Part shown: positions 3,527 through 32,688 of the stretch, in pieces
Position numbering within the stretch: the stretch's first letter is position 1
Layout: each line of letters starts with the position of its first letter
NCBI RefSeq assembly: GCF_016786325.1
Contig: NZ_JADWYU010000191.1
Location: 1-36,687, forward strand
Length of the DNA stretch: 36,687 nucleotides
Reading direction: 5' to 3'
Origin: Frankia nepalensis
Lineage (GTDB): Bacteria; Actinomycetota; Actinomycetes; Frankiales; Frankiaceae
Program-made: the position numbers and the translations under genes
The notes under the pieces: generated by a model
Told to the model about the DNA's origin: nothing
The model's database searches: none
The model's input: the letters and a program-made list of their open reading frames with translations, nothing else

Positions 3527-4309
3527 TCAGGTCTCGGCCAGGCCGCCCATCTGGTGGCCGCCGTCGACGGAGAGCACCTGGCCGGAGATGTACGAGGCGG
3601 CGTCACTCGCGAGGAAGACGATCGCCTGGGCCACCTCGTCGGGCCGGCCGACCCGGCCGAGCGGGGTGCCGGCGGCGATGTCGCCCGGGTCGATGCCGGC
3701 GACGTCCCACGCCGCCGCCGCCCGCTCGGAGGCGATCCCACCCACCGCCACGCAGTTGGACCGGATGCCGTAGGGCCCCCACTCGGCCGCGGTCACCTTG
3801 GTGAACATCTGCAGCGCGGCCTTGGCCGAGGCGTAGTGCGCCCCGCCCCGCACGCCGTAGACCCCGGCGTCGGAGGAGACGTTGACGATCGCGCCGGAGC
3901 GCTGCTCGAGGAAGTGCCTGCCGGCCTCACGGGCGCAGAGGTAGGCCGCGCGCACGTTGAGGTCGAAGCTCGCGTCCCAGCCCTTGGTCGGCAGGGTCCG
4001 CAGCGGTCCCATCCGGGTTCCGCCGGCGTTGTTGACGAGGATGTCGACCCGGCCGAGCTCGGCGACGGCGCGCTCGACGAGCGCGGCGACCTGCTCCTCG
4101 TCCTTGATGTTCGTCGGCACCGGCAGGCAGCGGCGGCCGGTGGCGTCGCGGACGGCGGCCGAGGTGCGTTCCAGGTCGGCGACGGTGCGGGCGGCGATCG
4201 CGACGTCGGCGCCGTGGGCCGCGAGCAGCCGGGCGGTGGCCGCGCCGATCCCGGTCCCGCCACCGGTCACGATCGCGACGCGGCCGGTCAGGTCGTAGGG
4301 GGCGTCCAT
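3527..4309 (-). CDS. SDR-family oxidoreductase (FabG-like)
   Basis: A 260-residue classical short-chain dehydrogenase/reductase. It shows the cofactor glycine motif TGGGTGIG (about residues 16-23), NNAG (about 92-95), a Ser in IVNVSSDAG and the catalytic YASAK (Tyr about 159, Lys about 163), and ends with a normal ISGQVLSVDGGHQMGG tail. The arginine after the second strand (AARTVADL) suggests NADP(H), but this is not certain. Such enzymes reduce or oxidise hydroxy/keto groups, often on acyl-CoAs in degradation clusters. ATG 4309 has GAGG 9 bases upstream. It lies 123 bp downstream of the isomerase-like gene on the same strand and may be cotranscribed with it. Confidence 0.9.
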   Translation of the reverse strand: MDAPYDLTGRVAIVTGGGTGIGAATARLLAAHGADVAIAARTVADLERTSAAVRDATGRRCLPVPTNIKDEEQVAALVERAVAELGRVDILVNNAGGTRMGPLRTLPTKGWDASFDLNVRAAYLCAREAGRHFLEQRSGAIVNVSSDAGVYGVRGGAHYASAKAALQMFTKVTAAEWGPYGIRSNCVAVGGIASERAAAAWDVAGIDPGDIAAGTPLGRVGRPDEVAQAIVFLASDAASYISGQVLSVDGGHQMGGLAET

Positions 4310-4432
4310 ATGCGAGAACCTCGATCTCCCGGGTCGGCTGTTTCCAGGTGAGCTGGCATTCCAGGCGGCTAGGCGGCGGTTCGCCAGTCGACGGCTGGCC
4401 GGTCCGCGACCGGCTGCTCGGCGCCGGGACCG

Positions 4433-5191
4433 TCAGCGCCAGTAGCGGGCGGTGGACGCGTGGGCCAGCCGGCAGAACTCGGGAACCGGGAGCTGGCGCA
4501 GCTCGGCGGACAGCACCTCGACGCTCACCAGACCGTCGAAGCCACGCTCCAGCAGCGTCGAGGCGAACCGTTCCAGGTCGAACTCGCCGTCGCCCGGCAT
4601 GACGCGGCGGTGCAGCGTCTCGGAGAACCCACTGCCGACGGGCGGCGGGGCGTCGTCGAACTGGATGTAGGCAATCTCGTCCAGTGGGATCGCCGAGAGC
4701 TCGGCCCAGGTGCTCTTCCCTCGGAAGAAATGCCACGTGTCGATCAGCACCCCGGACCGCTCGGCGCCCGCCGCGGCCACCACCTCCCGGGCCGCGGAGA
4801 TCGTCCCGACGGGGCCCAGCGGGCTGAACTCCACCGCGAGGCCGGCACCGGCCTCGGCGAGCATCTCGGCGCACCGGCGGATGACCGGCGCGGTCTCGGC
4901 GGACAGGCCCGCCCGGAACCCGGCCAGCACCCAGCGCGCGCCGACGGTGGCCGCGGCCTCGGCGAGCTGGCCGGCCTGCGCCAGCGTCGCCTCCGCGTCG
5001 TCGCCGACCAGCAGCGCCAGCAGCTCGTGGCAGCGCGTCCCGGCCGCCGCGAGCGTCTTCGCGCCGGCCGCGTCGGCGCGCCCGGCGGCCAGGCCCACCG
5101 CGGTGAACCCGGCGCCGGCCGCGGCCCCGACGAGGCCGGGAACGTCGATCTCCCGCCGGGAGTCGGGAGTCAACGCGATCTCGACCGCCAT
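4433..5191 (-). CDS. Sugar phosphate isomerase/epimerase-like TIM-barrel protein
   Basis: A 252-residue protein of the xylose-isomerase-like/AP-endonuclease-2 TIM-barrel superfamily. Visible landmarks are AVEFSPLG (a Glu at the usual metal-ligand position, about 120), VLIDTWHFFRG (Asp and His ligands), YIQFDDAP and the terminal GLVSVEVLS with its conserved Glu. This fits a metal-dependent aldose-ketose isomerase or epimerase acting on a small hydroxy acid or sugar; many family members of this type are uncharacterised and the substrate cannot be assigned. ATG 5191 is preceded by GAGGAG at 6-base spacing. It sits between two SDR genes on the same strand. Confidence 0.8.
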   Translation of the reverse strand: MAVEIALTPDSRREIDVPGLVGAAAGAGFTAVGLAAGRADAAGAKTLAAAGTRCHELLALLVGDDAEATLAQAGQLAEAAATVGARWVLAGFRAGLSAETAPVIRRCAEMLAEAGAGLAVEFSPLGPVGTISAAREVVAAAGAERSGVLIDTWHFFRGKSTWAELSAIPLDEIAYIQFDDAPPPVGSGFSETLHRRVMPGDGEFDLERFASTLLERGFDGLVSVEVLSAELRQLPVPEFCRLAHASTARYWR

Positions 5192-5321
5192 GAGCGCTCC
5201 TCACTGCCGACCGTGTGACACGACCGGTGTGGCAAGACCCGCGCGGACACGGCCCCGCGTCACACCGACGCCCCCAGAATCGCGGCAGCAGCCTGCCAGA
5301 AGCGACCGATACGACGGTCCG

Positions 5322-6062
5322 TCAGGCGGGCTGGCGGGGCATGACGGTTACGGAGGGGACGGTGCCGCGGCAGCGCAGCACGCTGTCGACGACACGCGCC
5401 AGCTCGGCCACGTCGAGGAGGGCCCCGGTCGCGTAGCCGAGGCGGTGCCAGATGGGGTGGTACTTGGCGGCGTAGGCGAGGTCCCAGTCATTGGCGAACT
5501 CGGTGCGCCCATAGCCGTCGCCGCCGGCGCAGTCGCCGACGACGACGCGGGTGAAGCCGACTTCCGGGTGCTCGGTCCGGTACGCCTCGACGAGCTTGTC
5601 GAGCGCGGCCTTGCTCACCGCGTAGGCGGCGAACCCGGGCCAGACCGGGGTGTGCGAGGCACTGATCGACGACAGATAGGCGGCCACGCCGCCGGCGGCC
5701 TTCAGATGCGGCAGCGCGGCGGCGGTGACGAGGGCCGCGCCGGTGACGTTGGTGTCGAAGGCGCGGCGCCAGGTGGCCGCGTCGACCTTCTCGACCGGAG
5801 ACAACGGGCCGATGCCGGCGCAGTAGACGAGGGCGTCGAGGCCGCCGAGGCCGGCGACGGCCTCCTCGACCGCCGCCGCGGCGGACGCCTCGTCGGTGAC
5901 ATCGCAGGCGATGGCGAGCGTGCCGGGGCCCGCTTCCTTCGCCGCGTCCACCAACCGCTCGCGCCGGCGGGCAAGTAAGGCGACCTGGTCGCCCCTTTGG
6001 CCGAGATCGACGCCGATACACCGACCGAGCCCGCTGGACGCACCGACCACCGCAACCTTCAC
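5322..6062 (-). CDS. SDR-family oxidoreductase
   Basis: A 246-residue short-chain dehydrogenase with GASSGLG near the N-terminus (about residues 7-13), VYCAGIG in the NNAG position, SSIS and YAVSK (catalytic Tyr/Lys, about 145-149). It closely resembles the SDR at 10356-11135 over its whole length (same GASSGLGR start, same DTNV, YAVSKAALDKLIEAYR-like and HPIW segments), so the two are paralogues. The start is GTG 6062, with AAGGAG 6 bases upstream. The 330-bp upstream gap holds a large inverted repeat and the terminator of the next gene. Substrate unknown; an alcohol/ketone step of the same pathway is likely. Confidence 0.88.
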   Translation of the reverse strand: MKVAVVGASSGLGRCIGVDLGQRGDQVALLARRRERLVDAAKEAGPGTLAIACDVTDEASAAAAVEEAVAGLGGLDALVYCAGIGPLSPVEKVDAATWRRAFDTNVTGAALVTAAALPHLKAAGGVAAYLSSISASHTPVWPGFAAYAVSKAALDKLVEAYRTEHPEVGFTRVVVGDCAGGDGYGRTEFANDWDLAYAAKYHPIWHRLGYATGALLDVAELARVVDSVLRCRGTVPSVTVMPRQPA

Positions 6063-6248
6063 CTGGCACTCCTTCTAAATGGGGACGGGTAACTTCTCGT
6101 GGCCGCGGCCGGCGCTGGTGCGCGGGCGGACGGCGCTCGCGTGGTTGGCGTGCCAGGCGGGAATCGGCGCGGCGCCTCCTGGGCGGAGACCCGCCACCCG
6201 GCAGCACGACGGTAGGCCGCGACTTCGACCAAGACAAGTGAACGCACA

Positions 6249-6281
6249 CTTCACGAGCGGTCCACTGGACCGCCCGTGAAG
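6249..6281. promoter_or_regulatory. 33-bp near-perfect inverted repeat, possible operator
   Basis: Two 16-base arms, CTTCACGAGCGGTCCA at 6249-6264 and TGGACCGCCCGTGAAG at 6266-6281, are inverted with a single central base and one mismatch. A smaller inverted pair, AAGTG/CACTT (6236-6251), overlaps its left edge. It lies 187 bp upstream of the SDR that starts at 6062 and 112 bp beyond the stop of the 6393 gene, outside any credible gene. The one-base spacer argues against a simple RNA hairpin and for a dimeric protein site, but a terminator cannot be excluded. Confidence 0.5.
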
Positions 6282-6324
6282 CCGGGCATCGCCACTCCCC
6301 GTTGCCGCTGCCGTCGCCGCCCCC

Positions 6325-6367
6325 GGTTCCCGGTACCCGACCCGGGAGAGCTCGGCCACCGGGAACC
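6325..6367 (-). terminator. Stem-loop after the DapB-like gene
   Basis: GGTTCCCGGT (6325-6334) and ACCGGGAACC (6358-6367) form a perfect 10-bp stem that continues, after one mismatch, with CCC/GGG pairs outside. The 23-base loop contains a second CCCGGG. It begins 25 bases past the TGA of the gene at 6393 and has no U-tract, as is common in high-GC actinobacteria. It probably ends the 9091-6393 operon. Confidence 0.5.
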
Positions 6368-6392
6368 TGGGGCTCAGGCGAGAAGCGGGGTC

Positions 6393-7454
6393 TCAGGCCA
6401 GGGACAGGCCGATGATCGGGGGCAGGTCGAGCGTGGTGCGGATGCCGGGAGCGGCGGCGACGACGGCCGCGATCGCGTTGACGGGCCGGTTGGCGGTGTA
6501 GCTGGGGGTCGTCGCGGCCATCTGCTCGAGCGTGAGCGGGAAGCGCAGGGAGATGTCCAGCGGGGCGTCGCCCTCGACGATCACCCGCCAGCCGGTGTCC
6601 TGGAGCTCCCAGTCGACGTCGAGGTCGGTCGTGCAGTACCAGTTGGCCCGGAACTGCAGGAACGGCGTGCCGGCGTGCCGGCCCGTGACCGTGATGCGCT
6701 GCGCGGCCACGGTCCCGGCGCGGATGGTCCCGGCGGCGATCTCGAGGTCGTTCTTGGCGACGGCGAGCTCGCCGGAGCCGGTGATCTCGTCCAGCGGCTT
6801 GCCGACCGCGTCGGCCACCAGGGCCAGCGACGGGCCGAAGGCCTCGCACAGGTGAGCCGCGCGGCGCTCGTCGAACTCCGTCAGTGGCCGGCCGTAGCCC
6901 ATCAGGTTGAACAGCATGTCCGGCGAGTCGCGCCGCGACATGTCCGCGTACTCGTTGATGACCAGTCGGTCGAGCCGGCGCTGGATCGAGGAGATCACCA
7001 GGGGCAGCGCCTCGGAGATGAAGCCGGGGCTGGAGCCGGTCGAGTGGATCGAGGTGCCGCCGGCCGCGCAGGCCTTCTCGACCCGGCCGCGCAGCGCCGG
7101 ATCGATGCTGGCCGGCCGGTGGAACTCGCCGCGGGTGGTGACGATGTTCGCCCCGGACTCGAGCAGCCGGCACACCTCGTCGACGTCCAGGCGGGCCGGC
7201 ATGTAGAGGACGCAGTCCGCGCCGAGCGCGACGACGTCGTCGATGCTGGTGGTCGCCGCGACACCGGTGACCGTGTCGAGGCCGGCGAGCTCGCCGGCGT
7301 CCTTGCCGGCCTTGTCCGCGCTGTAGACGTAGAGGCCGACGAGCTCGAGCGCCGGGTGCTCGATGACGGCCCGCAGCGACCGGGTGCCGATGTTCCCGGT
7401 CGCCCACTGGACGACGCGTAACGGGGCCTGGGCGATGTCCTGGGTCGTGCTCAA
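6393..7454 (-). CDS. Dihydrodipicolinate reductase-like NAD(P)-dependent oxidoreductase
   Basis: A 353-residue protein with an N-terminal Rossmann fold (LRVVQWATGNIGTRSLRAVI, about residues 12-31) followed by YVYSADKAGKDAGEL and ANIVTTRGEFHRPA, the layout of the DapB-like/2,4-diaminopentanoate-dehydrogenase-like group common in mycobacteria and Frankia. It is not a lysine-pathway DapB: it is longer and sits in a catabolic cluster. The exact reaction is unknown. The start is TTG 7454, which overlaps the TGA of the upstream DUF35-thiolase gene by 4 bases, indicating translational coupling and a shared function. Confidence 0.8.
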   Translation of the reverse strand: MSTTQDIAQAPLRVVQWATGNIGTRSLRAVIEHPALELVGLYVYSADKAGKDAGELAGLDTVTGVAATTSIDDVVALGADCVLYMPARLDVDEVCRLLESGANIVTTRGEFHRPASIDPALRGRVEKACAAGGTSIHSTGSSPGFISEALPLVISSIQRRLDRLVINEYADMSRRDSPDMLFNLMGYGRPLTEFDERRAAHLCEAFGPSLALVADAVGKPLDEITGSGELAVAKNDLEIAAGTIRAGTVAAQRITVTGRHAGTPFLQFRANWYCTTDLDVDWELQDTGWRVIVEGDAPLDISLRFPLTLEQMAATTPSYTANRPVNAIAAVVAAAPGIRTTLDLPPIIGLSLA

Positions 7455-9091
7455 GCGTCTGCCCTCCGCAGTAGGAACGCGCCGCCGGGTGCGCCACCGC
7501 CGGTGGAGACGACCGCGGTGCGGGCGTCGGCGACCTGGCGAGGGCCCGCCTCGCGGCGCAGCTGGGTGATTGCCTCGTAGAAGAAGCCGAAGCCGTGCAG
7601 CCGGCCCTCGGAGAGCTGGCCGCCGTGCGGGTTGAGGGGGAGGTCGCCGTCGAGCGCGATGCGGCGGCCCTTGTCCAGCCAGTCCTTCGCCTCACCGATT
7701 CCGCAGAACCCGAGGCTCTCCAGCCAGGAGATCGCGTTGAAGGTGAAGCCGTCGTACAGGCACGCGAGGTCGATGTCGGCGGGACGCAGGTCGGTCCTCG
7801 TCCACAGATGCGTCGCCGGGCCCATCACGAGCGGCTCATGGGTGATCGTGCCCTGGTCCCAGCTGATCCGCTCGTTGACCTGGGTACCGACCGCCTCGAC
7901 CCGGATCGCGGGCTTGGGCAGGTCGGCGGCCGTGTCGGCGGCCGAGACGATGACCGCCACGGAGCCGTCGCAGGGCACGTCGCAGTCGTAGAGCCCGAAC
8001 GGCGTCGAGATCATCCGCGCGTTCATGTAGTCGTCGAGGGTCATCGGGGCGCGATAGATCGCGTCCGGGTTGCGCCCCGCGTTCGCCCGGCCGTTGAGCG
8101 CGATGGCCGCGAGCATCTCCCGGTCGGCGCCGTAGCGGTGGAAGTACTGGCTCGCGCACAGCGCGATCCAGCCCGCCGCGGACATCGCGCCGAACGGCGC
8201 GCGCCACTCCTGCCAGCCGGAGACCCGGCCGCCCCCGCCCGCGCCACCCGCGTGCCGGAACGACGACTCCCAGACGGTCCGGAAGCACAGCACGTGCCGG
8301 CACAGGCCGGCCGACACCGCCAGCATCGCCTGGAGGATCGCCCCGCCCTGGCCGGGCAGGTCCATGCCGCCGTTGATCCAGGTGGGCCGGATCCGCAGCG
8401 CCTCCTCGACGGCGGTGACCCCGCCCTCGCTCATGCCCATGCCCGCCGGGCCGGGGTAGGTCGACAGGCCGTCGATGTCCTCGACCCGCAGGCCGGCGTC
8501 CGCGATGGCGGCGAGGCTCGCGTCGACGGTGAGCGACAGCGGCTCGATCCCCAGCCGGCGCCCGACCTTCGAGCGGCCGATGCCGGAGAGGACCACCCGG
8601 TGCTCGAACCGGTCGTCGGACAGCGGCCGGCGCACGGGCGGCAGGCTCGGCTCGGCGATCGGGTTGGTCTCGGTCGCCGGGTCGACGGTCGCCGGGTCGG
8701 CGAGCGGCTCGAACAGCGGCAGGTAGACGTCCTCGGACTGCTCGAAGGAGACGCGGACCCGCTGGCCGACGTGGACCTCACCCGGTGCGCAGCCGACGAC
8801 GTTCGTGGTGAGCCGGACGTCCGGGCTCTCGTCGAGCGCGACGATCGCGATCACATAGGGCGGCGTGAAGTCGGGGTGCCACTGCTGGACGTTCACGGTG
8901 ACGCCGACGACGGTCGCCAGCCCCGACACCTCGGTCGGGGCGTGGGCGCGGCTCCGGCACGACGGGCAGATCGGCACCGGCGGGTGGACAAGCGTGCCGC
9001 AGTCCTGGCAGCCCTGGATCCGCAGCTTGCCGTCGGCTCCCGACGTCCAGAACCACTCGTTCGCCGGCGTCAGCGCGGGGAGAGGCCGCAT
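7451..9091 (-). CDS. Fused DUF35 (zinc ribbon/OB-fold)-thiolase protein, Ltp2-aldolase-like
   Basis: A 546-residue fusion. Residues about 20-140 are a DUF35 module: a zinc ribbon with Cys28, Cys31, Cys42 and Cys45 (GCQDCG and ICPSC), then an OB-fold. Residues about 165-545 are a thiolase-like domain of the lipid-transfer-protein type, with FGLYDCDVPCDG, DLACLYDGFTFNAI and NPHGGQLSEGRLHGFG. In steroid catabolism, Ltp2 pairs with the DUF35 domain of ChsH2 and performs a retro-aldol cleavage of a beta-hydroxyacyl-CoA; the standard thiolase Cys and GHP motifs are also not evident here, so aldolase activity is a reasonable inference. ATG 9091 was chosen because AAGGAG lies 5 bases upstream. An upstream TTG (9163) would start inside a probable operator. 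It overlaps the downstream DapB-like gene. Confidence 0.85.
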   Translation of the reverse strand: MRPLPALTPANEWFWTSGADGKLRIQGCQDCGTLVHPPVPICPSCRSRAHAPTEVSGLATVVGVTVNVQQWHPDFTPPYVIAIVALDESPDVRLTTNVVGCAPGEVHVGQRVRVSFEQSEDVYLPLFEPLADPATVDPATETNPIAEPSLPPVRRPLSDDRFEHRVVLSGIGRSKVGRRLGIEPLSLTVDASLAAIADAGLRVEDIDGLSTYPGPAGMGMSEGGVTAVEEALRIRPTWINGGMDLPGQGGAILQAMLAVSAGLCRHVLCFRTVWESSFRHAGGAGGGGRVSGWQEWRAPFGAMSAAGWIALCASQYFHRYGADREMLAAIALNGRANAGRNPDAIYRAPMTLDDYMNARMISTPFGLYDCDVPCDGSVAVIVSAADTAADLPKPAIRVEAVGTQVNERISWDQGTITHEPLVMGPATHLWTRTDLRPADIDLACLYDGFTFNAISWLESLGFCGIGEAKDWLDKGRRIALDGDLPLNPHGGQLSEGRLHGFGFFYEAITQLRREAGPRQVADARTAVVSTGGGAPGGAFLLRRADA

Positions 9092-9157
9092 CGCAGCTCC
9101 TTGTCGCCTCATGGTCAGGTCGCCTCGGGACGTGTCGCACCGTGAGTGGTACCACGT

Positions 9158-9177: not shown

Positions 9178-9321
9178 CAAGAGTGATCGGCTACGCGCCG
9201 AAGCGGATACACTGCGTGGCGCCATCGGGTCATCGACGTACGCACTACACTGTTGACGGCTGGGGTAATGACTGGGGTGACAGCTGGCCTGGTTCGTTCA
9301 GCCGCGGCGGAGCCGACCAGG

Positions 9322-10017
9322 ATGGCGGCGGAACAGGAGCGGGCATTGACGACGGCGGTGCCGGTTGACCGCGAGAAGCCGGGCGGACCGCGCTCTCGGA
9401 AGGGCGTGGCGACCCGCGCGCGGCTCCTGGAAGCGGCCAAGGCCGTATTCGAGGAAGACGGTTTCCTCGAGGCCCGGATCTCCGACATCGCCGACCGCGC
9501 GGGGCTGTCGCACGGCTCCTTCTACCACTACTTCGACTCCAAGGAACAGATCTTCCGCGAGGTCGCGAACGAGCTCTCGGACCTGTTGCACGCCCCGCTG
9601 AGCACCGCGATCTTCGACCACACCTCCACCGCGTCCCCGCAGGAGCGGATCCGGGCCGGCAACCGCCGTTTCCTGGAGGACTACCGGCGGGAAGCCCGGA
9701 TCATCGGCGTCATCGAGCAGGTCTCCCGCTACGACGAGCACCTGAACACGGTTCGGTTCGAGCACCAGAAGCGCGACCGTGAGCGCATCGCCAACTCCAT
9801 CGCGCAGTTGCAGCGGCGCGGCTGGGTCGACCCCAGCCTCAACCCGCTGATCGCCGCGTCGGCGCTCGGCGCGATGGTCACGAGGTTCGCCGAGATGTGG
9901 CTCGTCCAGGGGCTGTTCGACACCGATTTCGACGAGGGCGCCGAGCAGTTGACCCGACTCTTCCTGAACGCGCTGCACCTGCGCGACAAGCCGACGCGCG
10001 CCGACGTCCCGGAGTAG
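9322..10017 (+). CDS. TetR/AcrR-family transcriptional regulator
   Basis: A 231-residue TetR repressor. After a basic N-terminal tail (GGPRSRKG) comes the DNA-binding domain at about residues 32-78: ARLLEAAKAVFEEDGF, ISDIADRAGLSHGSFYHYF (helix-turn-helix) and DSKEQIFREVA. The remainder is a helical ligand/dimer domain containing FLEDYRREARIIGVIEQVSR. Close relatives regulate lipid or acyl-CoA metabolism, but the ligand is not readable. ATG 9322 was chosen because GGAG lies 9 bases upstream; the frame stays open back to 9253. It is divergent from the DUF35-thiolase operon with operator candidate A between them, and is my leading candidate for the protein that binds the five shared palindromes (inference). 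Confidence 0.88.
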   Translation: MAAEQERALTTAVPVDREKPGGPRSRKGVATRARLLEAAKAVFEEDGFLEARISDIADRAGLSHGSFYHYFDSKEQIFREVANELSDLLHAPLSTAIFDHTSTASPQERIRAGNRRFLEDYRREARIIGVIEQVSRYDEHLNTVRFEHQKRDRERIANSIAQLQRRGWVDPSLNPLIAASALGAMVTRFAEMWLVQGLFDTDFDEGAEQLTRLFLNALHLRDKPTRADVPE

Positions 10018-10355: not shown

Positions 10356-11135
10356 ATGCGAACGGTTGTGGTCGGCGCCTCCAGCGGGTTAGGACGTGCC
10401 ATCGGGGTCGCGCTCGGCCAGCGCGGCGGGCAGGTCGCGCTGCTCGCCCGGCGCAAGGACCGGCTCGACGACGCGGTCGCCGAGGCGGGCTCCGGCGCGG
10501 TCGCGGTCGCGTGCGACGTCACCGACCAGCCGTCCGTCAAGGCCGCGATCGACGAGGCCGCGACCGCGATGGGCGGGATCGACTCGGTCGTCTACGCCAC
10601 CGGGGTCGGCGTGCTCAAGCGGCTGGTCGACCTCGACACCGCGACCTGGCACCACGTCTTCGACACCAACGTCATCGGCGCCTCGCACGTCACGGCCGCG
10701 GCGATTCCCTACCTGACCGAGAACAAGGGTGTCGTGGCCTTCCTGTCGTCGATCACCGGCTCGGTCACCGAGCCGTGGCCGGGGCTCGGCTCGTACGCGG
10801 TCAGCAAGGCCGCGCTCGACAAGCTGATCGAGGCCTACCGGGTCGAGTACCCGACGGTCGGCTTCACCCGGGTGACGGTCGGCAACTGCGTCGGCGGCGA
10901 GGGCGGCTCCGGCACCGAGTTCCCGTTCAGCTGGGACCCGGAGCTGGCCGCCGCGGTGCACCCGATCTGGTTCCAGCGTGACTACGTCAACTCGGACTTC
11001 GTCCAGATCGAGGACCTGATCAACGTCGTGCACGCCGTCATCACCAGCGGCGCGGCGCTGAAGTACGTGGTCGTCGACGCGCGCCGCTCGGTCCCCCTCC
11101 CGCTCGGCGTCCCCACCCAGAACACCCCGGCCTGA
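10356..11135 (+). CDS. SDR-family oxidoreductase (paralogue of the 5322 gene)
   Basis: A 259-residue short-chain dehydrogenase with GASSGLGRAIG at residues about 6-16, YATGVG in the NNAG position, SSITGS and YAVSKAALDKLIEAYR (catalytic Tyr/Lys about 147-151). It parallels the SDR at 5322-6062 along its full length, including FDTNV and a HPIWF/HPIWH segment near residue 205, so both probably act on similar substrates. ATG 10356 lacks a strong Shine-Dalgarno sequence; GTGAG lies about 9 bases upstream. Operator site B and a tandem 21-bp repeat occupy its leader. It is convergent with the ABC transporter operon, with a shared terminator. Confidence 0.88.
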   Translation: MRTVVVGASSGLGRAIGVALGQRGGQVALLARRKDRLDDAVAEAGSGAVAVACDVTDQPSVKAAIDEAATAMGGIDSVVYATGVGVLKRLVDLDTATWHHVFDTNVIGASHVTAAAIPYLTENKGVVAFLSSITGSVTEPWPGLGSYAVSKAALDKLIEAYRVEYPTVGFTRVTVGNCVGGEGGSGTEFPFSWDPELAAAVHPIWFQRDYVNSDFVQIEDLINVVHAVITSGAALKYVVVDARRSVPLPLGVPTQNTPA

Positions 11136-15756: not shown

Positions 15757-16938
15757 TCAGCTCACGGCAGGCACCTCGAACACGACGGCGCTCGCCATGC
15801 CGCCACCGGCGCACATCGACGACACGGCCACGCCGCCACCGCGGCGACGCAACTCGTGGGTCAACGTGACGATCTGTCGGGTGCCGGTCATGGCGATCGG
15901 GTGGCCGAGGCTGCAGCCGCTGCCGAGGATGTTGACGATCTCGTCGTCGATCCCCAGCAGCTTGCAGGCGGCCGCGGGCACCGAGGCGAACGCCTCGTTG
16001 ATCTCCCAGAGCGTCACGTCCGCGATGCCGAGGCCGGCGCGCTCCAGCGCCTTCGGGATCGCCCTGACCGGGGCGAGGCCGGTCTCCGCCGGCGGGACGC
16101 CGACCGACGCCCAGGACCGGATCACCGCGAGCGGCTCGAGCCCGTTCGCCTCGGCGAACGCGCGGGAGGTGAGCACCACGGCGCCCGCGCCGTCGTTGGT
16201 GCCCGAGGCGTTGCCCGCGGTGATGCTGAAGCCCTCGATCTCGGGGTGCAGCACCTTGAGCGCGCCCAGCCTCTCCAGGCTGGTGTCGCGACGTGGGTGC
16301 TCGTCGGTGTCGAAGGAGAAGGTGGTCCCGTCACGGCGGGTCACCTCGACCGGGACGATCTCCTCCTTGAAGCTGCCCGCGTCGATGCCGGCCACCGCGC
16401 GCTGGTGCGAGCGCAGCGCCCAGGCGTCCAGGTCGTGGCGGGACAGCCCGGCCTTCACGGCGGCGTTCCAGCCGACCGTGATGGACATGTCGTAGTTGGG
16501 GGCCTCGGGTGTGTTGCGGTGGGTGGGCGAGTACCAGTCGACGACGTCGTCGGTGCCGGGCGCGCGACGCTTGGCCCGCGGCGAGGTGGACGACGAGTTC
16601 GTGCCGCCGGCGACGACGACCTTGTCCATCCCGGTCATGATCGAGGCCGCGGCCGTCTGGATCGCCGCCATGCCGGAGGCGCAGTGCCGGTTGTGGGCGA
16701 CGCCGGGGGCGTTGATGAGGCCGGCCTCGATGGCCGCGTACCTGGCGATGTCCCCACCGCCGTACAGCGCCTCGCCGAGGACGACGTCGTCGACCAGTTC
16801 CGGGTCGACGCCGGCCCGGCGGACCGCCTCGCCGACGACCAGGGTCGCCAGCTCGAACGCGTCGACGTCGTTCAGGGATCCCTTACGGGCTGTGCCCACC
16901 GGCGTGCGCGCGGTCGAGACGATCACCGCTTCATGCAT
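15757..16938 (-). CDS. Thiolase (acetyl-CoA C-acyltransferase, FadA-like)
   Basis: A 393-residue thiolase with all catalytic residues: nucleophile Cys86 in NRHCASGMAAIQ, His346 in GSGCSLGHPIAMTGTRQI and Cys376 in SSMCAGGGMASA, plus NEAFAS. It should cleave 3-ketoacyl-CoA with CoA to acetyl-CoA and a shortened acyl-CoA, the last step of a beta-oxidation turn, in the cytoplasm. The length is normal for degradative thiolases. ATG 16938 has GAGGAG about 10 bases upstream. It is a single-gene unit: operator candidate C lies 90 bp upstream, the terminator of the next operon lies between, and its own terminator follows. Confidence 0.93.
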   Translation of the reverse strand: MHEAVIVSTARTPVGTARKGSLNDVDAFELATLVVGEAVRRAGVDPELVDDVVLGEALYGGGDIARYAAIEAGLINAPGVAHNRHCASGMAAIQTAAASIMTGMDKVVVAGGTNSSSTSPRAKRRAPGTDDVVDWYSPTHRNTPEAPNYDMSITVGWNAAVKAGLSRHDLDAWALRSHQRAVAGIDAGSFKEEIVPVEVTRRDGTTFSFDTDEHPRRDTSLERLGALKVLHPEIEGFSITAGNASGTNDGAGAVVLTSRAFAEANGLEPLAVIRSWASVGVPPAETGLAPVRAIPKALERAGLGIADVTLWEINEAFASVPAAACKLLGIDDEIVNILGSGCSLGHPIAMTGTRQIVTLTHELRRRGGGVAVSSMCAGGGMASAVVFEVPAVS

Positions 16939-17027
16939 GTCTACAGCACTCCTCTACTGGCCTGGTGGGACCAGGGCCCCCGCGTGCCGGGTCAGGCATC
17001 GAGGGTGCGGGCCCAAGCATAGAAATA

Positions 17028-17043
17028 TTGACGTCGATGTCAA
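17028..17043. promoter_or_regulatory. Palindromic operator candidate, site C
   Basis: TTGACGTCGATGTCAA is palindromic except for one base pair and is the best example of the five-site motif. It lies 90 bp upstream of the thiolase ATG (minus strand) within a locally AT-rich stretch (AGAAATATTG), as expected of a promoter region. Confidence 0.7.
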
Positions 17044-17089
17044 GACAGGCCCACCTCGGACCGCGCGACATCGGTCCTCACAGCAGTGG

Positions 17090-17125
17090 GCCGCCGGCGC
17101 CGTCGACGTTGACGGCGCCGGCGGC
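17090..17125 (-). terminator. Terminator of the SDR-thioesterase operon
   Basis: Perfect 15-base inverted arms (17090-17104 and 17111-17125) flank the loop GACGTT. It begins 19 bases beyond the TesB stop on the minus strand and upstream of the thiolase promoter, the right place for a terminator separating the two units. The loop region GTCGACGTTGAC also resembles the operator core, so a regulatory role is not excluded. Confidence 0.7.
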
Positions 17126-17143
17126 GGCACTGTTCCGCCGGAG

Positions 17144-18022
17144 TTACAGGCGGTGGGTGCCGGCGGACGCCGGCGCCATCGGACGGATCATGCTGTCCTG
17201 GACGAAGGAAGCCACCAGGCCGCCATCGGCCCGGAAGACGTCGCCATGGCCGTATCCCCGGCCTCTGCCGGCGTAGGGGCTGCGGTGCGCGAGCAGCAGC
17301 CAGTCACCCGCCGGGATGGGCTCGTGGAAGGTGATCGTGTGCGAAAGCACACCGGTGGAGATGGTGCGGTGGGCCTGCGCCTGCCCGACGCCGGCGTGCG
17401 GCCGCATGGCCGTCCCGATGAGGAAGCCGTCCGTGCCGAACGCCAGCAGCGCCTGGGCGCTGCCCGCGTCGTCTGGCGCGCCCGGCCAGCGCGTCCACAC
17501 GTCGAGCTCGGCCGGGCCGACGGCCTCCGGGTCGGAGATGTCGACCCCGCCGACGACGCTGACCTGCCAGGTCCCGGGCGGGTCGTCGGCGCCCTGGCCG
17601 CCGTGCCCGCCGAGCCCGGCGGTGTCCTCGGCCCCCGGCTTCGGCGGCTCCAGGCCCGGCCGGGTGTCGCCGTGCCGGATGAAGTCCGGATCGTCGGCGG
17701 ACAGCAGCACGGTCGACTGGGAGATGACCTTGCCGCCCTGGCTGATCGTGACCGCGCTGCTGGCCATGCTGCGGCCGGAGTGCAGCCGCGTCACCGCGAT
17801 GTCGAGCGGCGTGTCGGGCCGGCCAGGCCGGGCGAAGACGGTGTGCAGGGTCTTGACCGTCTTGCCGTTCTGGCCGGCCAGAGCCGCGGCGATCGACTGG
17901 GCGAGCAGTTGGCCGCCGAAGACCACCACCGGGTTGGGCGAGGGGATGCTGTTCGCGCGGTAGAGGTCCTCGCCGACCGGTTCTAAGACCAGTGAGCCGA
18001 GAACCGCGTCAACGGTGAACAC
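17144..18022 (-). CDS. tesB: Acyl-CoA thioesterase II (TesB family)
   Basis: A 292-residue double-hotdog thioesterase. The N-terminal hotdog has VVFGGQLLAQSIAAAL, HTVFARPGRPDTPLDI and HSGRSMASSAVTISQGGKV. The C-terminal hotdog has TDGFLIGTAMRPH, SHTITFHEPIPAGDWLLLAH, the RGRGYGHGDVFRADG segment and a VASFVQDSMIR end with the expected Gln. It hydrolyses acyl-CoA to acid and CoA, and in catabolic clusters it probably frees CoA from stalled intermediates. A Gly/Pro-rich insertion (about residues 118-150) separates the halves. GTG 18022 starts 7 bases after the stop of the upstream SDR, so the two form an operon controlled by site D. Confidence 0.92.
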   Translation of the reverse strand: MFTVDAVLGSLVLEPVGEDLYRANSIPSPNPVVVFGGQLLAQSIAAALAGQNGKTVKTLHTVFARPGRPDTPLDIAVTRLHSGRSMASSAVTISQGGKVISQSTVLLSADDPDFIRHGDTRPGLEPPKPGAEDTAGLGGHGGQGADDPPGTWQVSVVGGVDISDPEAVGPAELDVWTRWPGAPDDAGSAQALLAFGTDGFLIGTAMRPHAGVGQAQAHRTISTGVLSHTITFHEPIPAGDWLLLAHRSPYAGRGRGYGHGDVFRADGGLVASFVQDSMIRPMAPASAGTHRL

Positions 18023-18029
18023 GGCCGGG

Positions 18030-18806
18030 CTACTTGGCCGGGAAGCGCAGAGCGCCGTCGAGGCGAATGTTCTCGCCGTTGAGGTACGGGTTGCGGGCGA
18101 TCGACTCGACCAGCAGCGCGAACTCCTCCGGCCGGCCCAGCCGCTTCGGGAAGACGATGTCCTTGGTGAGGGCCGCCAGCATCTCCGGGCGGACGCTCTC
18201 CATCTTCGGGGTGCCCATCGTGCCGGGGGCGATGCCGCATACCCGGACGCCCAGCGGCGCGAGGTCGCGGGCCATCGGCAGCGTCATGCCCAGGACCGCG
18301 GCCTTGGCCGCGCCGTAGGCGATCTGGCCGGTCTGGCCCTCGAGGCCGGCGAGCGAGCCGACGTTGACGATGACGCCACGCTGGCCGAACTCGTCCGGCT
18401 CGTTGTCGGCGAAGGCGCCGGCGGCGACGAGGCGGCTCACGTTGAAGGTGCCGGTCGCGTTCATCGCCAGCGTGTCCACGAACACGTTCTTGTCGTGCGG
18501 GGTGTTGCCCTTGCCGACGGTCCGGCCGCCGCCGGTCGCGCCGCCGGCGACGTTGACCAGCAGCGAGATCGTGCCGAGCGCCTTGCCAGCCGCGATGGCG
18601 GCCGCCACGTCGTCGTCGATCGTCGTGTCGCCGCCGACCGCCGTGACCTGGCTGTCGTCGAACTCCTTGGCGACCGCCTCCGCGGCGTCCGGGAACTTGT
18701 CGACGATCACGACCTTCATGCCGAGGCCGACGAGGTGGCGCACCGTCGCCGCGCCGAGCCCGCCGCCGCCGCCGGTCACGATCGCTACGCGTCCGTTCAG
18801 GTCCAA
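18030..18806 (-). CDS. SDR-family oxidoreductase (3-hydroxyacyl-CoA dehydrogenase-like)
   Basis: A 258-residue SDR of the type-10 17-beta-hydroxysteroid dehydrogenase style: TGGGGGLGAATVRHL for the cofactor, VDKFPDAA (Asp after strand 2, indicating NAD), NVAGG in place of NNAG, VGSLAG and YGAAKAAVLGMTLPMARDL (Tyr/Lys), and the closing IARNPYLNGENIRLDGALRF, characteristic of this subgroup. It probably oxidises 3-hydroxyacyl-CoA or a steroid-like hydroxyl with NAD. The start is TTG 18806, supported by GAAGGG 8 bases upstream. It is the first gene of a two-gene operon with tesB and is divergent from the LLM gene across operator candidate D. Confidence 0.88.
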   Translation of the reverse strand: MDLNGRVAIVTGGGGGLGAATVRHLVGLGMKVVIVDKFPDAAEAVAKEFDDSQVTAVGGDTTIDDDVAAAIAAGKALGTISLLVNVAGGATGGGRTVGKGNTPHDKNVFVDTLAMNATGTFNVSRLVAAGAFADNEPDEFGQRGVIVNVGSLAGLEGQTGQIAYGAAKAAVLGMTLPMARDLAPLGVRVCGIAPGTMGTPKMESVRPEMLAALTKDIVFPKRLGRPEEFALLVESIARNPYLNGENIRLDGALRFPAK

Positions 18807-20008: not shown

Positions 20009-20296
20009 AGTAGGGGGCATAACGGGTCGTCGACGACGGAGGCTGCATCACAAGCTGGCATCGTCGGGTTTCCATACCTGTCGGCCTATGGCCTGGCTCG
20101 TCAGGAGTAATCACAATCAACTGGGGCCCGCTTGCGGCCCCGGTTGGCGGGGCGTTGCGCACGCCCCATGCCGCCCGCGCGGGGGTGCCCCACACCCCGC
20201 GGCGGCGCGGACCGGTTGGAGCGCCACGGCCATGCCGAGCGGGCGCGTCCAGCCGGCGGATCTTATCGTTTCTGCCCTGGAGTGAAGGTCGCGACC

Positions 20297-22439: not shown

Positions 22440-23585
22440 TCAGGTGGAGAGGATGGCGACGCCGGCGGTGCCGGGGGCGCCGTAGAGCTGGCCGTAGCCG
22501 ACGCGCGGGGTGCCGGGGACCTGGCGGTCGCCGGCGGTGCCGCGCAACTGCTGGGTGAGCTCGTAGACCTGGCGCAGGCCGGAGGCGCCGATCGGCTCGC
22601 CGTTCGCGATGAGGCCGCCGTCGGTGTTCACCGGGATGCTGCCGCCGATCTCGGTGGCCCCCTCGGCGTACAGGCGCTCCTGCTCGCCGTCCTTGCACAG
22701 GCCGTTCTCGGCGAGGTGGATCACCTCCGCGCCGGCGTCGGTGTCCTGTAGCTGGGCGACGTCGACGTCGTCGGGCCCGAGGCCCGCCATCTCGTAGGCG
22801 GCCCGGGAGGCGAAGACGGTCGGCGCGTCGGCCCGCTGAAGCGGCAGCCATGGGCTGTGGACCTCGAAGGCGCCGAGCTTGCGGGTCCGCACGACCGACG
22901 CCTTCAGGTAGATCGGCTTGCTGGTGTACCTGTGCGCGACGCTCGCCCTGCACAGGATCACGGCCGCCGCGCCCTCATCGGGCGAACAGAACATGTACTG
23001 CGTCAGCGGGTCGTTCACCATCCGCGAGGTGAGGATCTTCTCCTCGCTCATCGGGGTGCGCCGGAACGCCAACGGGCTGATCGACCCGTTGCGGTAGTTC
23101 TTCGCCGCGACCTTCGCCAGCGTCCGCGGAGAGATCCCGTGGTCGTACATGTACCGCTGGATCTTCATGGCGAAGAACTTGGGGGTGAGGAACAGGCCGG
23201 TCTCGCCGTACCAGGCCGGCAGGCCGTACTCCTCCGAGTAGGAGGCGAAGGCGCCGGTCGGGTGCTTGTCCATGCCGACCGCGATGCCGAGGTCGTACTC
23301 GCCGAGGCGGATCGTGTTCGCCGCCTGGGTCAGCGCGCTCGCCGCGGTGGCGCAGCCGTTGTAGACGTCGGTGATCGGGATCCCGGTAAGGCCGAGGAAG
23401 TTGATGACCGCGTCCGGGTTGTCCACCTCGAAGCTGCCCGCGAACCCGAACTGGATCTGCTTCCACTCCAGGCCCGCGTCGGTCAGCGCCGCGCGCACCG
23501 CCTGGGCGCCGAGCTGGATGGCTGTCTGCCCGGGGAAACGGCCGAAGGGCGTCCTGCCGACGCCGATGATCGCAACATCGTCCAT
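22440..23585 (-). CDS. Thiolase-superfamily lipid-transfer protein (DUF35 partner)
   Basis: A 381-residue thiolase-like protein of the lipid-transfer-protein group. The nucleophile position is kept (Cys78 in VYNGCATAASAL), but the usual GHP histidine motif reads NGEPIGASGLRQVYE, with Glu330 in place of His, and the terminal Cys-Gly motif is replaced by YGAPGTAGVAIL. That makes ordinary thiolysis doubtful and favours another C-C cleavage or a carrier role, as for Ltp-type aldolases that need a DUF35 partner. That partner is the upstream gene, 10 bases away, in the same operon. ATG 23585 has GAGG 8 bases upstream. The operon is preceded by operator candidate E. Confidence 0.88.
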   Translation of the reverse strand: MDDVAIIGVGRTPFGRFPGQTAIQLGAQAVRAALTDAGLEWKQIQFGFAGSFEVDNPDAVINFLGLTGIPITDVYNGCATAASALTQAANTIRLGEYDLGIAVGMDKHPTGAFASYSEEYGLPAWYGETGLFLTPKFFAMKIQRYMYDHGISPRTLAKVAAKNYRNGSISPLAFRRTPMSEEKILTSRMVNDPLTQYMFCSPDEGAAAVILCRASVAHRYTSKPIYLKASVVRTRKLGAFEVHSPWLPLQRADAPTVFASRAAYEMAGLGPDDVDVAQLQDTDAGAEVIHLAENGLCKDGEQERLYAEGATEIGGSIPVNTDGGLIANGEPIGASGLRQVYELTQQLRGTAGDRQVPGTPRVGYGQLYGAPGTAGVAILST

Positions 23586-23595
23586 GGCGGCCGCC

Positions 23596-24036
23596 TCAGT
23601 TCTTTCCGGCAGAGTTCTCGACGGGACGGAAGGCGTAGGTCAGCACCTCGGTGCCGTCGGCGTCCGTGGCGAAGGGGACGACGGTCAGCTCCATCTCCTG
23701 GCCGATCTCGAGCGGCTCGTCGACGCCGCCCGTGAGCCGGGCCTCGACCCGGGCCTCCGGAAGTTCGATGTACCCGACGCCGTAACCGACGAAGTCCGCC
23801 GCGGCCTCGGTACCGAGGTAGGGCGGGTTCTTCGGCTGGAACCGCTGCCGGGTCCACGTCCACAGCGTGCCCCGCGTGGACAGCCGGGTCTCGGCGACGT
23901 CCAGGGACCCGCAGTTCGGGCAGTTCGGGTACGCGGGGAACGCGACCAGGTCACAGACCTGGCACTTCGACCCGATGAGCCGGGGCTCGTCCGACGGCCA
24001 GTCGAACAGGCCCTCCGCGACGACGCGCTGAGCCAA
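23596..24036 (-). CDS. DUF35 zinc-ribbon/OB-fold protein
   Basis: A 146-residue DUF35 protein with a rubredoxin-like zinc ribbon of four cysteines (Cys25, Cys28, Cys39, Cys42 in KCQVCD and NCPNC), then an OB-fold (RGTLWTWTRQRF onwards) and a closing VLTYAFRP. Such proteins bind acyl-CoA and form complexes with thiolase-like partners, here the downstream gene. I place the start at TTG 24036 because GGAGGAGGGGG lies just upstream. An ATG at 24063 is in frame but would put that Shine-Dalgarno sequence inside the gene and would overlap the operator palindrome at 24057-24072. Confidence 0.86.
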   Translation of the reverse strand: MAQRVVAEGLFDWPSDEPRLIGSKCQVCDLVAFPAYPNCPNCGSLDVAETRLSTRGTLWTWTRQRFQPKNPPYLGTEAAADFVGYGVGYIELPEARVEARLTGGVDEPLEIGQEMELTVVPFATDADGTEVLTYAFRPVENSAGKN

Positions 24037-24056
24037 GGCTGCCCCCTCCTCCGATA

Positions 24057-24072
24057 TTGACATCGGCGTCAG
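24057..24072. promoter_or_regulatory. Palindromic operator candidate, site E
   Basis: TTGACATCGGCGTCAG matches 14 of 16 positions of the consensus TTGACRTCGAYGTCAA and has the same ATAT flank as site C. It lies 21 bp upstream of the proposed TTG start of the DUF35 gene, a repressor-compatible position, and 275 bp upstream of the second TetR gene. Confidence 0.68.
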
Positions 24073-28317: not shown

Positions 28318-28413
28318 GCCACTTCCCTCCAGCGACCTCGGGCGGGACGTGACGCGACAGGCACGAGCGGTGCCTCGCGTCGCGTCCTCTATGACTTGCG
28401 TCGCACCCTCTAT

Positions 28414-28427
28414 GAAGTGAATGCTTC
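28414..28427. promoter_or_regulatory. Operator-like inverted repeat near the ligase gene
   Basis: GAAGTGAATGCTTC has GAAG/CTTC ends and shares the 9-mer AAGTGAATG with the reverse complement of the larger inverted repeat at 28632-28653. It lies 97 bp upstream of the ligase GTG. The pair would place one site near each divergent gene. Confidence 0.5.
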
Positions 28428-28631
28428 CAAGGTCAGCGCGACCCGGTCAACCGATTGCCCGCCGACCTCGCCGCCCCGCCAGCACGGCTCGCCCCACCGA
28501 CGCTGCCCGCCGCGGCGGCGCGGCGGCTCCCGGCGGCGCGTCCGCGGCCGGCTCCTCACCCGGTGGCACCGCCGGCTCCCGGCCTGGCACGTTACGTGCC
28601 CAGGCCGCGGCCGGCGGAAGTCACCAGAGCT

Positions 28632-28653
28632 AATAAACGAACATTCACTTATT
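28632..28653. promoter_or_regulatory. 22-bp AT-rich imperfect palindrome in the divergent promoter
   Basis: Arms AATAAACGAAC and ATTCACTTATT are inverted with three mismatches, in an AT-rich island 142 bp upstream of the CoA-transferase gene. The form (AATAA outer, GAAC/ATTC inner) is typical of TetR-type operators of fatty-acid genes. Except for this and the 28414 site, the 477-bp gap (28318-28794) is GC-rich and shows no gene. Confidence 0.55.
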
Positions 28654-28794
28654 GCTAGGCTCGCCGAACGGGCGACGACGGCCGTGACCTCGGTTCTCTT
28701 GCCCGCGGGCGGGTCGGGTCGCGTCAATGAGACGGCGAGGTCGAATCGGCCGGGGCCAGGTGGCCGGGGGCCGACACCAGGTTGGAGGAACCGA

Positions 28795-30009
28795 ATGACC
28801 GCCGTGATGCAGGGCGTCCGCGTCCTGGAGGTGGCCGAGCATACGTTCGTGCCCGCCGCGTCGGCGCTGCTGGCCGACTGGGGCGCCGACGTCATCAAGA
28901 TCGAGCACGTCGAGCGCGGCGACGCGATGCGGGGCCTGGCGTCCTCGGGGACGGTGCCCGTGACTGGCGGAGTCAACGTGCTGTTCGAGCATTCGAACCG
29001 CGGCAAGCGCAGTCTGGCGCTCGACCTCACCACCGCCGACGGGTTAGAGCTTCTCTACCGGCTCACCAAGACCGCGGACGTCTTCCTGACGAACAAGCTG
29101 CCCAGCGTCCGCGAGAAGCTGAAGATCACCGTGGACGACATCCGCGCCCACAACCCAAAGATCATCTATGTGCGCGGCACCGGCCAGGGCGAGCGCGGCC
29201 CGGAGGCCGACCGCGGCTCCTACGACTTCCTCGCGTTCTGGTCCCGGGCCGCGATGGCGCACACCGTCAGCCGGCCGGAGTACGGCCACGTGGTCGGCCC
29301 GCCGGCGCCCGGCTACGGCGACTCGATCGGCGCGATGACGATCGCCGGCGGGATCATGGGCGCGCTGTTCCACCGGGAGCGGACCGGCGAGACGCCCGTC
29401 GTCGACGTGTCGCTGTTCGGCACCGGGCTGTGGGCGGTCGGCCAGGCCCTGTCACTGTCGCTGCAGATGGGCGTCCCGATGGAGCCCGCGCCGCTGGAGC
29501 GGCTCAACCCGCTCGTGCAGAACTACCTGACCAAGGACGGCCGCTGGCTCGCGTTCTCCTGCCTGCAGGCCGGCAAGTACTGGCCGCTGCTGGCGGCGAC
29601 CCTCGAGCGGCCCGACCTGGCGAGCGACCCGCGCTTCGCCGACCACAACACCCTGATGGCGCACAGCGCCGAGGCGGCCGCGGTCCTGCGCGAGATCTTC
29701 GCCTCCGCGCCGCTGGCCGAGTGGCGGGAGCGGCTCGCCGGCTTCAGCGGCCAGTGGACGGTGGTCCAGCACACGCTGGACGCCGCCGCCGACCCGCAGG
29801 CCGTCGCCAACGGCTACGTCCAGGAGTGCGAGACCGCCGCCGGCGTCGCCTTCAGGCTCGCCGCGTCCCCGGTCCAGTTCGACGACGCGCCGTCGACGCC
29901 CACGCGCGGCCCGGAGTTCAACGAGCACGGCGACGACATCCTCGCCACCGAGCTCGGCCTCGACTGGGACACCATCATGGACCTCAAGGTCCGCGGGGTC
30001 GTGGCGTGA
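28795..30009 (+). CDS. CaiB/BaiF-type CoA-transferase (class III)
   Basis: A 404-residue class III CoA-transferase of normal length. It begins GVRVLEVAEHTFVPAASALLADWGADVIKIE, has the NRGKRSLALDL segment, and the catalytic aspartate is Asp176 in GYGDSIGAMTIAGG, followed by MGALFHRERTGE. It moves CoA between carboxylic acids through an aspartyl-CoA anhydride/thioester, activating an acid without ATP. ATG 28795 has GGAGGA 6 bases upstream; the longer upstream frame lacks any domain. The stop overlaps the GTG of the next gene by 4 bases, so the two are cotranslated. Divergent from the acyl-CoA ligase. Confidence 0.92.
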   Translation: MTAVMQGVRVLEVAEHTFVPAASALLADWGADVIKIEHVERGDAMRGLASSGTVPVTGGVNVLFEHSNRGKRSLALDLTTADGLELLYRLTKTADVFLTNKLPSVREKLKITVDDIRAHNPKIIYVRGTGQGERGPEADRGSYDFLAFWSRAAMAHTVSRPEYGHVVGPPAPGYGDSIGAMTIAGGIMGALFHRERTGETPVVDVSLFGTGLWAVGQALSLSLQMGVPMEPAPLERLNPLVQNYLTKDGRWLAFSCLQAGKYWPLLAATLERPDLASDPRFADHNTLMAHSAEAAAVLREIFASAPLAEWRERLAGFSGQWTVVQHTLDAAADPQAVANGYVQECETAAGVAFRLAASPVQFDDAPSTPTRGPEFNEHGDDILATELGLDWDTIMDLKVRGVVA

Positions 30010-32562: not shown

Positions 32563-32688
32563 GTGGCCGCGCCGGCCGGCGCGCGCGGGAGGCCATCGCT
32601 GGCGGCTCGCGGGCAGCCGAATCTAGTATTCACGTCGCGAGACTGCCGCGAAATCGGCGAGGCCGAGCCGAAGGGTGGGTCGATCGAG

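Follow-up and report, generated by a model that had tools for sequence, protein, structure and literature searches.

A one-chain DUF35–thiolase-fold protein of Frankia nepalensis, candidate aldolase of a clade sister to Ltp2, and its overlapping DapB-like oxidoreductase gene

In a 36,687-nucleotide stretch of the soil actinobacterium Frankia nepalensis (contig NZ_JADWYU010000191.1, positions 1 to 36,687 of the forward strand; hereafter the window), one open reading frame on the minus strand (7451..9091) joins a DUF35 module to a thiolase-fold domain resembling the steroid aldolase Ltp2, and its end overlaps the start of a gene for a DapB-like oxidoreductase (6393..7454, minus strand). The locus raises the question of which reaction such a fused protein carries out and whether the two gene products act together. 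Ltp2 and the aldolase Sal are wanted as tools for steroid building blocks, and each needs a second protein for its DUF35. A large clade with DUF35 in the same chain and a different conserved site would give one-gene enzymes and show the shift of this fold from thiolysis to aldol chemistry, and the partner gene would be a first handle on the function of an amine-dehydrogenase-fold member without the catalytic glutamate. Overall, the evidence leans modestly towards the fusion being a self-contained coenzyme A (CoA)-dependent aldolase of a clade sister to Ltp2, co-translated with a DapB-like oxidoreductase of the same catabolic cluster.

The fused protein comprises 546 amino acids, from an ATG at 9091 to a stop codon at 7451-7453, and a likely ribosome-binding site (AAGGAG, 9097..9102, minus strand) lies 5 bases upstream of the ATG. 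Three Pfam domains, all above the cut-off, were assigned to it: zf-ChsH2 (residues 15-50), OB_ChsH2_C (54-117) and Thiolase_C_1 (432-534). The zinc ribbon and the OB fold make up the DUF35 module (8741..9049, minus strand), and the thiolase-fold domain, nearest to Ltp2 by sequence and structure, occupies residues 160-546 (7454..8614, minus strand). In phmmer comparisons the two chains of the solved Ltp2 complex (6ok1) matched separate parts of the single fused chain, namely residues 167-541 for chain A, Ltp2 (E 4.9e-57), and residues 5-131 for chain B, the DUF35 of ChsH2 (E 1e-18). Both results bear out a first-pass annotation of this DNA, which had placed DUF35 and an Ltp2-like thiolase domain in one 546-residue chain. 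Across 85 aligned fused proteins, 56-80% identical to the query, the zinc-ribbon residues Cys28, Cys31, Cys42 and Cys45 were kept in 84, 84, 85 and 84 sequences, respectively, and the linker between DUF35 and the thiolase domain was 24-34 residues long. The union of both modules in one chain on the minus strand is real; a sequencing or frame artefact was ruled out by a frame that is open in 80 of 80 loci from other records and in four further copies of the same genome.

The fusion is common and not singular. The F. nepalensis genome encodes five fused copies, that of the window, two at 74% identity (C15 and C316), one at 60% (C5) and one at 56% (C327), and a scan of named genomes gave at least 571 confirmed relatives. 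The best 80 of these (the L-series of loci) all match the query from residue 1-3 through 538-546. The scan patterns, V[LV]CFRTVW and [TS]PFGLYDC, select for two motifs and not for those at residues 446 or 497. At E <= 1e-150 a fused protein was found in 21 of 35 Frankiaceae genomes, and in at least 14 of 396 genomes of a phylum sample, the phylum-wide counts being lower bounds because the best 3-5 candidates per genome were scored. Furthermore, fusion of DUF35 proteins to thiolase-superfamily members is already stated in the available text of Krishna et al. 2010 (PMC2954200). The architecture is therefore not new; the accessible portions of that account share it with the present protein, without treating a clade, an active site, a reaction or a partner gene.

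A structure model of the fusion was built from the 85 sequences (predicted local distance difference test, pLDDT, 89.4; predicted template modelling score, pTM, 0.90). Its best Foldseek match was Ltp2 (E 2.7e-34). Ltp2 was also the best match in the VIA comparison, which spans residues 160-545 only (Z 48.6, root-mean-square deviation 2.0, 371 aligned residues, 32% identity), followed by the putative thiolase 4u4e (Z 45.6), an archaeal acetoacetyl-CoA thiolase (6esq, 44.0) and the aldolase CtSal (9myr, 43.9). Among the structural matches were also PhlC, benzoylsuccinyl-CoA thiolase and acetoacetyl-CoA thiolase. A comparison with the complex of Ltp2 and the DUF35 of ChsH2 had been proposed at the outset; the thiolase domain, matched by itself, points to Ltp2, and the DUF35 fold rests on the Pfam domains and the match to 6ok1 chain B, since the VIA comparison starts at residue 160.

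According to the consulted parts of the work on the two known aldolases (PMC12329534), TcLtp2 uses Tyr294 of its YDHF motif as base and Tyr344 as acid, and CtSal uses Tyr302 and Cys304 of YDCY, with Cys304 as the proposed acid and a glycine at the place of the nucleophilic cysteine of SCP2-thiolases. The nucleophile column corresponds to Leu245 of the fused protein and reads Leu in 35, Thr in 26, Val in 13, Ile in 9 and Phe in 2 of the 85 proteins, with cysteine in none; a stray cysteine occurs at 240 or 251 in five. The alignment places Tyr446-Asp447-Gly448 of a YDGF motif (7748..7756, minus strand) opposite Tyr294-Asp-His296 of TcLtp2 and Tyr302-Asp-Cys304 of CtSal. Tyr446 and Gly448 are each invariant (85/85), as are Arg497 (7601..7603, minus strand), which stands at the place of TcLtp2 Tyr344 and CtSal Gln352, and His499, which follows it in a Gly-Arg-x-His motif. 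The Cys-His-Cys site of thiolases (EC 2.3.1.9/16) was not found in the aligned fusion, which lacks a cysteine at the nucleophile column, a GHP motif and a C-terminal catalytic cysteine. Thus, as columns 245, 446, 448 and 497 read in all 85 proteins, the thiolase site is missing, the aldolase tyrosine is retained and the acid of either known aldolase is absent.

The missing Cys-His-Cys site agrees with the first-pass annotation, and its Ltp2-like identity for the domain stands as far as the best match and the lack of a nucleophilic cysteine go. The protein is nevertheless not Ltp2 proper, with Tyr344 replaced by Arg497 and His296 by Gly448 throughout. With TcLtp2-ChsH2(DUF35), the C3 side-chain steroid aldolase, it shares the cysteine-free thiolase fold, a DUF35, the base tyrosine within YDxF and the NxHGGQL...HG stretch; it differs in these two residues, in belonging to a separate clade and in carrying its DUF35 in cis. 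TcLtp2 and CtSal borrow their DUF35 from a separate hydratase protein (ChsH2 and Shy, respectively), whereas in the fusion it is the N-terminus of the enzyme itself. Likewise, CtSal-Shy(DUF35), the C5 bile-acid side-chain aldolase, has the same fold, the equivalent of Tyr446 (Tyr302), a DUF35 partner and no nucleophilic cysteine (PMC12329534, in the parts consulted), but its Cys304 and Gln352 correspond to Gly448 and Arg497, and it is more distant in the tree.

That tree was computed from 44 thiolase domains, comprising 29 of the 85 fused proteins, 11 split ones from the F. nepalensis genome and 4 solved ones, with long-branch warnings on several split rows (C119 with C384a; the window's SCP2-type thiolase P0003 with 7yvy). 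The 29 fused rows formed one clade (support 98/97), nested in a larger clade of 33 rows (99/94) that carry YDGF and Gly-Arg-x-His, among them four split copies of the same genome. This clade was sister to the rows of TcLtp2, C31 and C327b (100/96), the joint node having support of 100/98, so that the fusion lies beside and outside the Ltp2 clade, in a tree holding one characterised Ltp2. Its nearest split relatives are two copies of its own genome, C160 (52% identity) and C111 (50%). C111 consists, in order, of a P450 gene, a gene for a 161-aa DUF35 protein and one for a 386-aa thiolase, the last two overlapping by 14 bases; the thiolase carries YDGF and GGRMHG motifs, and the order of DUF35 before thiolase is that of the fusion. 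This arrangement is a likely state prior to fusion, and the altered active site predates the fusion, given that split copies share both motifs inside the 33-row clade. As a separate observation, the uncharacterised 4u4e, with YDSF and without a nucleophilic cysteine, groups near CtSal with two copies of the F. nepalensis genome (C6 and C384b), a group that may be a further aldolase type.

The DapB-like protein (P0002) has 353 amino acids and a TTG start at 7454. In Pfam its DAP_DH_C match was above and its DapB_N match below the cut-off, and it scored below the cut-offs of the curated NCBIfam models for dapB (21.6 bits against 122) and Ord (90.7 bits against 400). Its structure model (pLDDT 86.9) places it in the DAPDH/native amine dehydrogenase fold family, with the native amine dehydrogenases 7xdu (Z 32.3, 325 residues aligned) and 6g1m (Z 31.2) as best matches and the best DapB at 19.4. 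The gene announced in the first-pass annotation as DapB-like is therefore present but resembles native amine dehydrogenases more closely than DapB, and a true DapB is ruled out by the dapB score and the far closer amine-dehydrogenase fold. With the native amine dehydrogenases and 2,4-diaminopentanoate dehydrogenase (AmDH4, 6g1m; TtherAmDH, 7xdu) it shares the fold over its whole length and the DAP_DH_C domain; it differs in falling below the Ord cut-off and in having Gly109 for the catalytic glutamate. That glutamate is E102 in AmDH4, in the text available (PMC9325545), and its equivalence with Gly109 is based on a profile alignment free of gaps, together with the numbering of 6g1h and 6g1m. 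Among 23 aligned proteins this column holds Gly in 19, Ala in 2, Ser in 1 and Glu in 1, the single Glu belonging to an unlinked relative of 50% identity. The adjacent Glu110 is kept in 20 of the 23, and two linked loci, L038 and L060, have Gly there instead. Gly109 argues strongly against a working amine dehydrogenase, and since family members without the catalytic glutamate were inactive on the substrates tested, in the parts of the report consulted (PMC11164908), the protein is more likely an oxidoreductase of carbonyl or alcohol groups that performs no ammonia chemistry.

The four-base coupling of the two genes was confirmed: stop and start share TTGA at 7451..7454 (minus strand). Upstream of it, within the end of the fusion gene, GGAGGG (7462..7467, minus strand) is a likely ribosome-binding site of the DapB-like gene and is kept in relatives. 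The DapB-like gene lies directly behind the fusion in six of eight genomes of the genus (G000, G028, G029, G030, G032 and G033), the overlap being TTGA in the window and ATGA in the other five, always behind GGAGGG. This shared place and GGAGGG in five further genomes indicate that the overlap is not a chance of the window sequence. Within the Frankiaceae, a DapB-like orthologue was found in 14 of the 35 genomes. Each of these is one of the 21 that encode a fused protein and also one of the 16 whose fused protein is at least 72% identical, a line between fused subgroups that was drawn after seeing the data; the accompanying Fisher values do not correct for relatedness. In four genomes, all of one other genus of the family, the two genes lie on opposite strands with 4.6-4.8 kb between them; in four Frankiaceae genomes they are on different contigs. 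In the phylum sample, orthologues (E <= 1e-115) occurred in at least four of the 396 genomes, each of which also belongs to the 14 that encode a fused protein: that of the window itself, G416 with the gene 69 bases upstream on the same strand, G057 with it 8.8 kb away on the opposite strand and G084 with it 77 kb away.

Of the best 80 of the at least 571 loci, 11 had a DapB-like gene of at least 59% identity in the fetched stretch, four more had one of 31-34% and 65 had none. Absence in the fetched loci is weak evidence because many stretches end at contig ends; moreover, genes were called by the GC content of codon positions, which missed some, e.g. both Ltp2-type genes of L020. In six of the 11 the DapB-like gene is less than 100 bases from the fusion, downstream in L030, L031 and L032 (Pseudofrankia or Frankia, the same DNA as G028, G032 and G033) and upstream in L042, L046 and L062. 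Three linked loci are from Acidimicrobiaceae (L038, L042 and L060), L046 is from an Actinomycetes bacterium and L062 from an Actinomycetota bacterium. All 11 linked fusions in the tree, that of the window included, fell into a single subclade of 16 rows (100/99); the remaining five rows either lack linkage or have a distant DapB-like gene only. A survey of the overlap, which the first-pass annotation had called for, therefore gives a divided answer: the overlap is kept in most genomes of the genus and is seen in that genus only, and looser linkage of the same two genes extends to some lineages outside it. An open literature search, with subscription papers outside it, found no published account of the fused clade's active site or of the DapB-like partner.

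The Ltp2-like aldolase reading is favoured because Ltp2 is the best match by sequence, profile and structure, Tyr446 is kept, the nucleophilic cysteine is missing, both groups share a joint clade (100/98) and the neighbouring genes concern acyl-CoA. The fusion most likely acts as a retro-aldolase on beta-hydroxyacyl-CoAs in one pathway with the oxidoreductase, and probably works like Ltp2 despite its different residues at the places of Tyr344 and His296 and its different clade. The DUF35 module, in cis, would shape the acyl-CoA pocket, and a beta-hydroxyacyl-CoA would be bound between the thiolase dimer and DUF35. Tyr446 as base would remove the proton of the beta-hydroxyl group, the C-C bond would break to give an aldehyde or ketone and acetyl- or propionyl-CoA, and Arg497 with His499, at the place of the TcLtp2 acid, may hold or protonate the enolate. 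The aldehyde or ketone would be handed on in the pathway, perhaps to the DapB-like enzyme, which, as an oxidoreductase of NAD(P) type, may act on this carbonyl compound or on an intermediate nearby in the catabolic cluster that the two genes share. Immediate reduction or oxidation of the aldol product, as suggested in the first-pass annotation, would be one form of this.

Several points weigh against this interpretation. There is no member of the fused clade with known activity, the acids of TcLtp2 (Tyr344) and CtSal (Cys304) are both absent from the fusion, and arginine is an unusual acid. Gly448 may mean other chemistry, given that mutation of His296 lowered the activity of TcLtp2 14-fold and mutation of Cys304 abolished that of CtSal, in the parts of the study consulted (PMC12329534). 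As for the partner, two genomes of the genus (G031 and G034) have a fused protein of 72-76% identity, and no DapB-like orthologue was found in them at E <= 1e-100. Furthermore, the DapB-like protein may serve an HpcH/HpaI lyase instead, the two genes being adjacent in four loci.

The active-site differences could also signify a non-aldolase of the same fold, which would catalyse a cysteine-free acyl-CoA reaction (decarboxylation, C-acyl transfer or condensation, for instance) and use Arg497 to bind a substrate carboxylate. Carboxylate-binding sites typically have an invariant arginine, the motif is unlike that of both known aldolases in all 85 sequences, and DUF35-bound members of the fold (PhlC, benzoylsuccinyl-CoA thiolase and acetoacetyl-CoA thiolase) perform other chemistry. 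This explanation is nonetheless considered unlikely, as Ltp2 is the nearest clade, the catalytic tyrosine is kept, and enzymes of the PhlC and thiolase types, including PhlC and BbsB, rely on a catalytic cysteine. That the fusion is a catalytically silent acyl-CoA-binding or lipid-transfer protein is quite improbable. Its best NCBIfam model, below the cut-off, is named lipid-transfer protein, but this is also the molecule name of the aldolase Ltp2 itself in 6ok1, and the strictly conserved active-site motifs of the 85 proteins, which are 56-80% identical to the query, argue otherwise.

Regarding the gene pair, it is an evenly balanced matter whether the overlap reflects ordinary operon packing within one catabolic pathway, with neither protein acting on the other's products or touching it. 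Overlaps of the ATGA type are common in actinobacteria, and outside the genus the DapB-like gene is either not found or else lies upstream, in divergent orientation or at a distance of kilobases. P450, CaiB and SDR (short-chain dehydrogenase/reductase) genes are equally frequent neighbours, and the 27 DapB-like matches in the F. nepalensis genome include no neighbour of its four other fused copies. On the other hand, the two genes stay associated in distant lineages although their order and strands have changed. The best structural matches of the DapB-like protein would suit a functional amine dehydrogenase, one that converts the aldehyde or ketone product of the aldolase into an amine by reductive amination; the loss of the catalytic glutamate and the inactivity of glutamate-less members (PMC11164908, as far as available) make this very improbable indeed. 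Returning to the aldolase reading, a more far-reaching form of it is offered tentatively, as doubtful but possible: the fused clade may add a third type to the CoA-dependent aldolases of thiolase fold, partner-free and with a Tyr-Arg site in place of Tyr-Tyr (Ltp2) or Tyr-Cys (Sal), one subclade of which may form a working unit with a glutamate-less oxidoreductase of the amine-dehydrogenase fold that gained another carbonyl reaction.

A separate thiolase and DUF35 pair is also present in the window (22440..24063, minus strand), as the first-pass annotation had noted; its DUF35 reading frame (23596-24063) ends at 24063 and not at 24036, and its thiolase (P0003, 22440-23585) is of the cysteine-bearing SCP2 type. 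P0003 has a cysteine (NGCATAAS) at the nucleophile column of the alignment, SCP2-thiolases are its best solved matches, its Thiolase_N domain is above the Pfam cut-off, and it is far from the fusion in the tree. The cysteine and these matches ruled out the pair as an unfused counterpart of the fusion, i.e. a split version of the same enzyme. P0003 also reads QDTD at the place of HDCF and GEP in place of GHP, and its own chemistry may thus be altered too despite the nucleophile. Split pairs of the Ltp2 type do exist in the F. nepalensis genome outside the window: in C327 a ChsH2-sized protein of 311 aa with a C-terminal DUF35 overlaps an Ltp2-type thiolase reading frame, and C31 resembles this pair, with a 135-aa DUF35 reading frame.

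Fusion neighbours across loci include CoA-transferases, acyl-CoA dehydrogenases, SDRs and P450s, a gene content that fits a pathway of acyl-CoA breakdown. In both L030 and L031, genes for GntR, SDRs, P450, TetR, thiolase and thioesterase surround the fusion and its partner; most have 76-93% identity to genes of the window (P450 65%). On the minus strand of the window, two SDRs (5322-6062 and 3527-4309) and a xylose-isomerase-like TIM barrel protein (4433-5191) (together 3527..6062) follow the DapB-like gene and belong to the same cluster in genus relatives. On the plus strand, a TetR regulator (9253..10017) is divergent from the fusion gene, as in L030, L031 and L032, and an SDR (10356..11135) belongs to the same cluster in L030 and L031. 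Genes for a thiolase, an acyl-CoA thioesterase and an SDR (15757..18806, minus strand) are beside the fusion in L030 and L031 and further away in the window. A CoA-transferase of family III (28396..30009, plus strand) has relatives of 68-72% identity near the fusion in L033, L035, L036, L062 and the C15 copy of the same genome. Four of the 80 loci (L038, L042, L046 and L060) keep the order CoA-transferase III, HpcH/HpaI lyase and DapB-like gene beside the fusion, and this cassette is 69-84% identical between them.

Some further differences in gene order were observed. A branched-chain-type ATP-binding cassette transporter set (11263-15181), with two ATPases and a 750-aa protein of double permease domains, separates the SDR gene at 10356 from the thiolase gene at 15757; these two are near neighbours in L030 and L031. 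Similarly, a P450 gene follows the DapB-like gene in L030 (L030:8993-10174), L031 and L032, where the window has a short gap (6063-6392), and the P450 encoded in the window (20132-21481) is only 65% identical to it. The window also encodes two doubled proteins, one of 850 aa with two acyl-CoA dehydrogenase halves (99-2651) and one of 884 aa with two CoA-transferase III domains (32563-35217).

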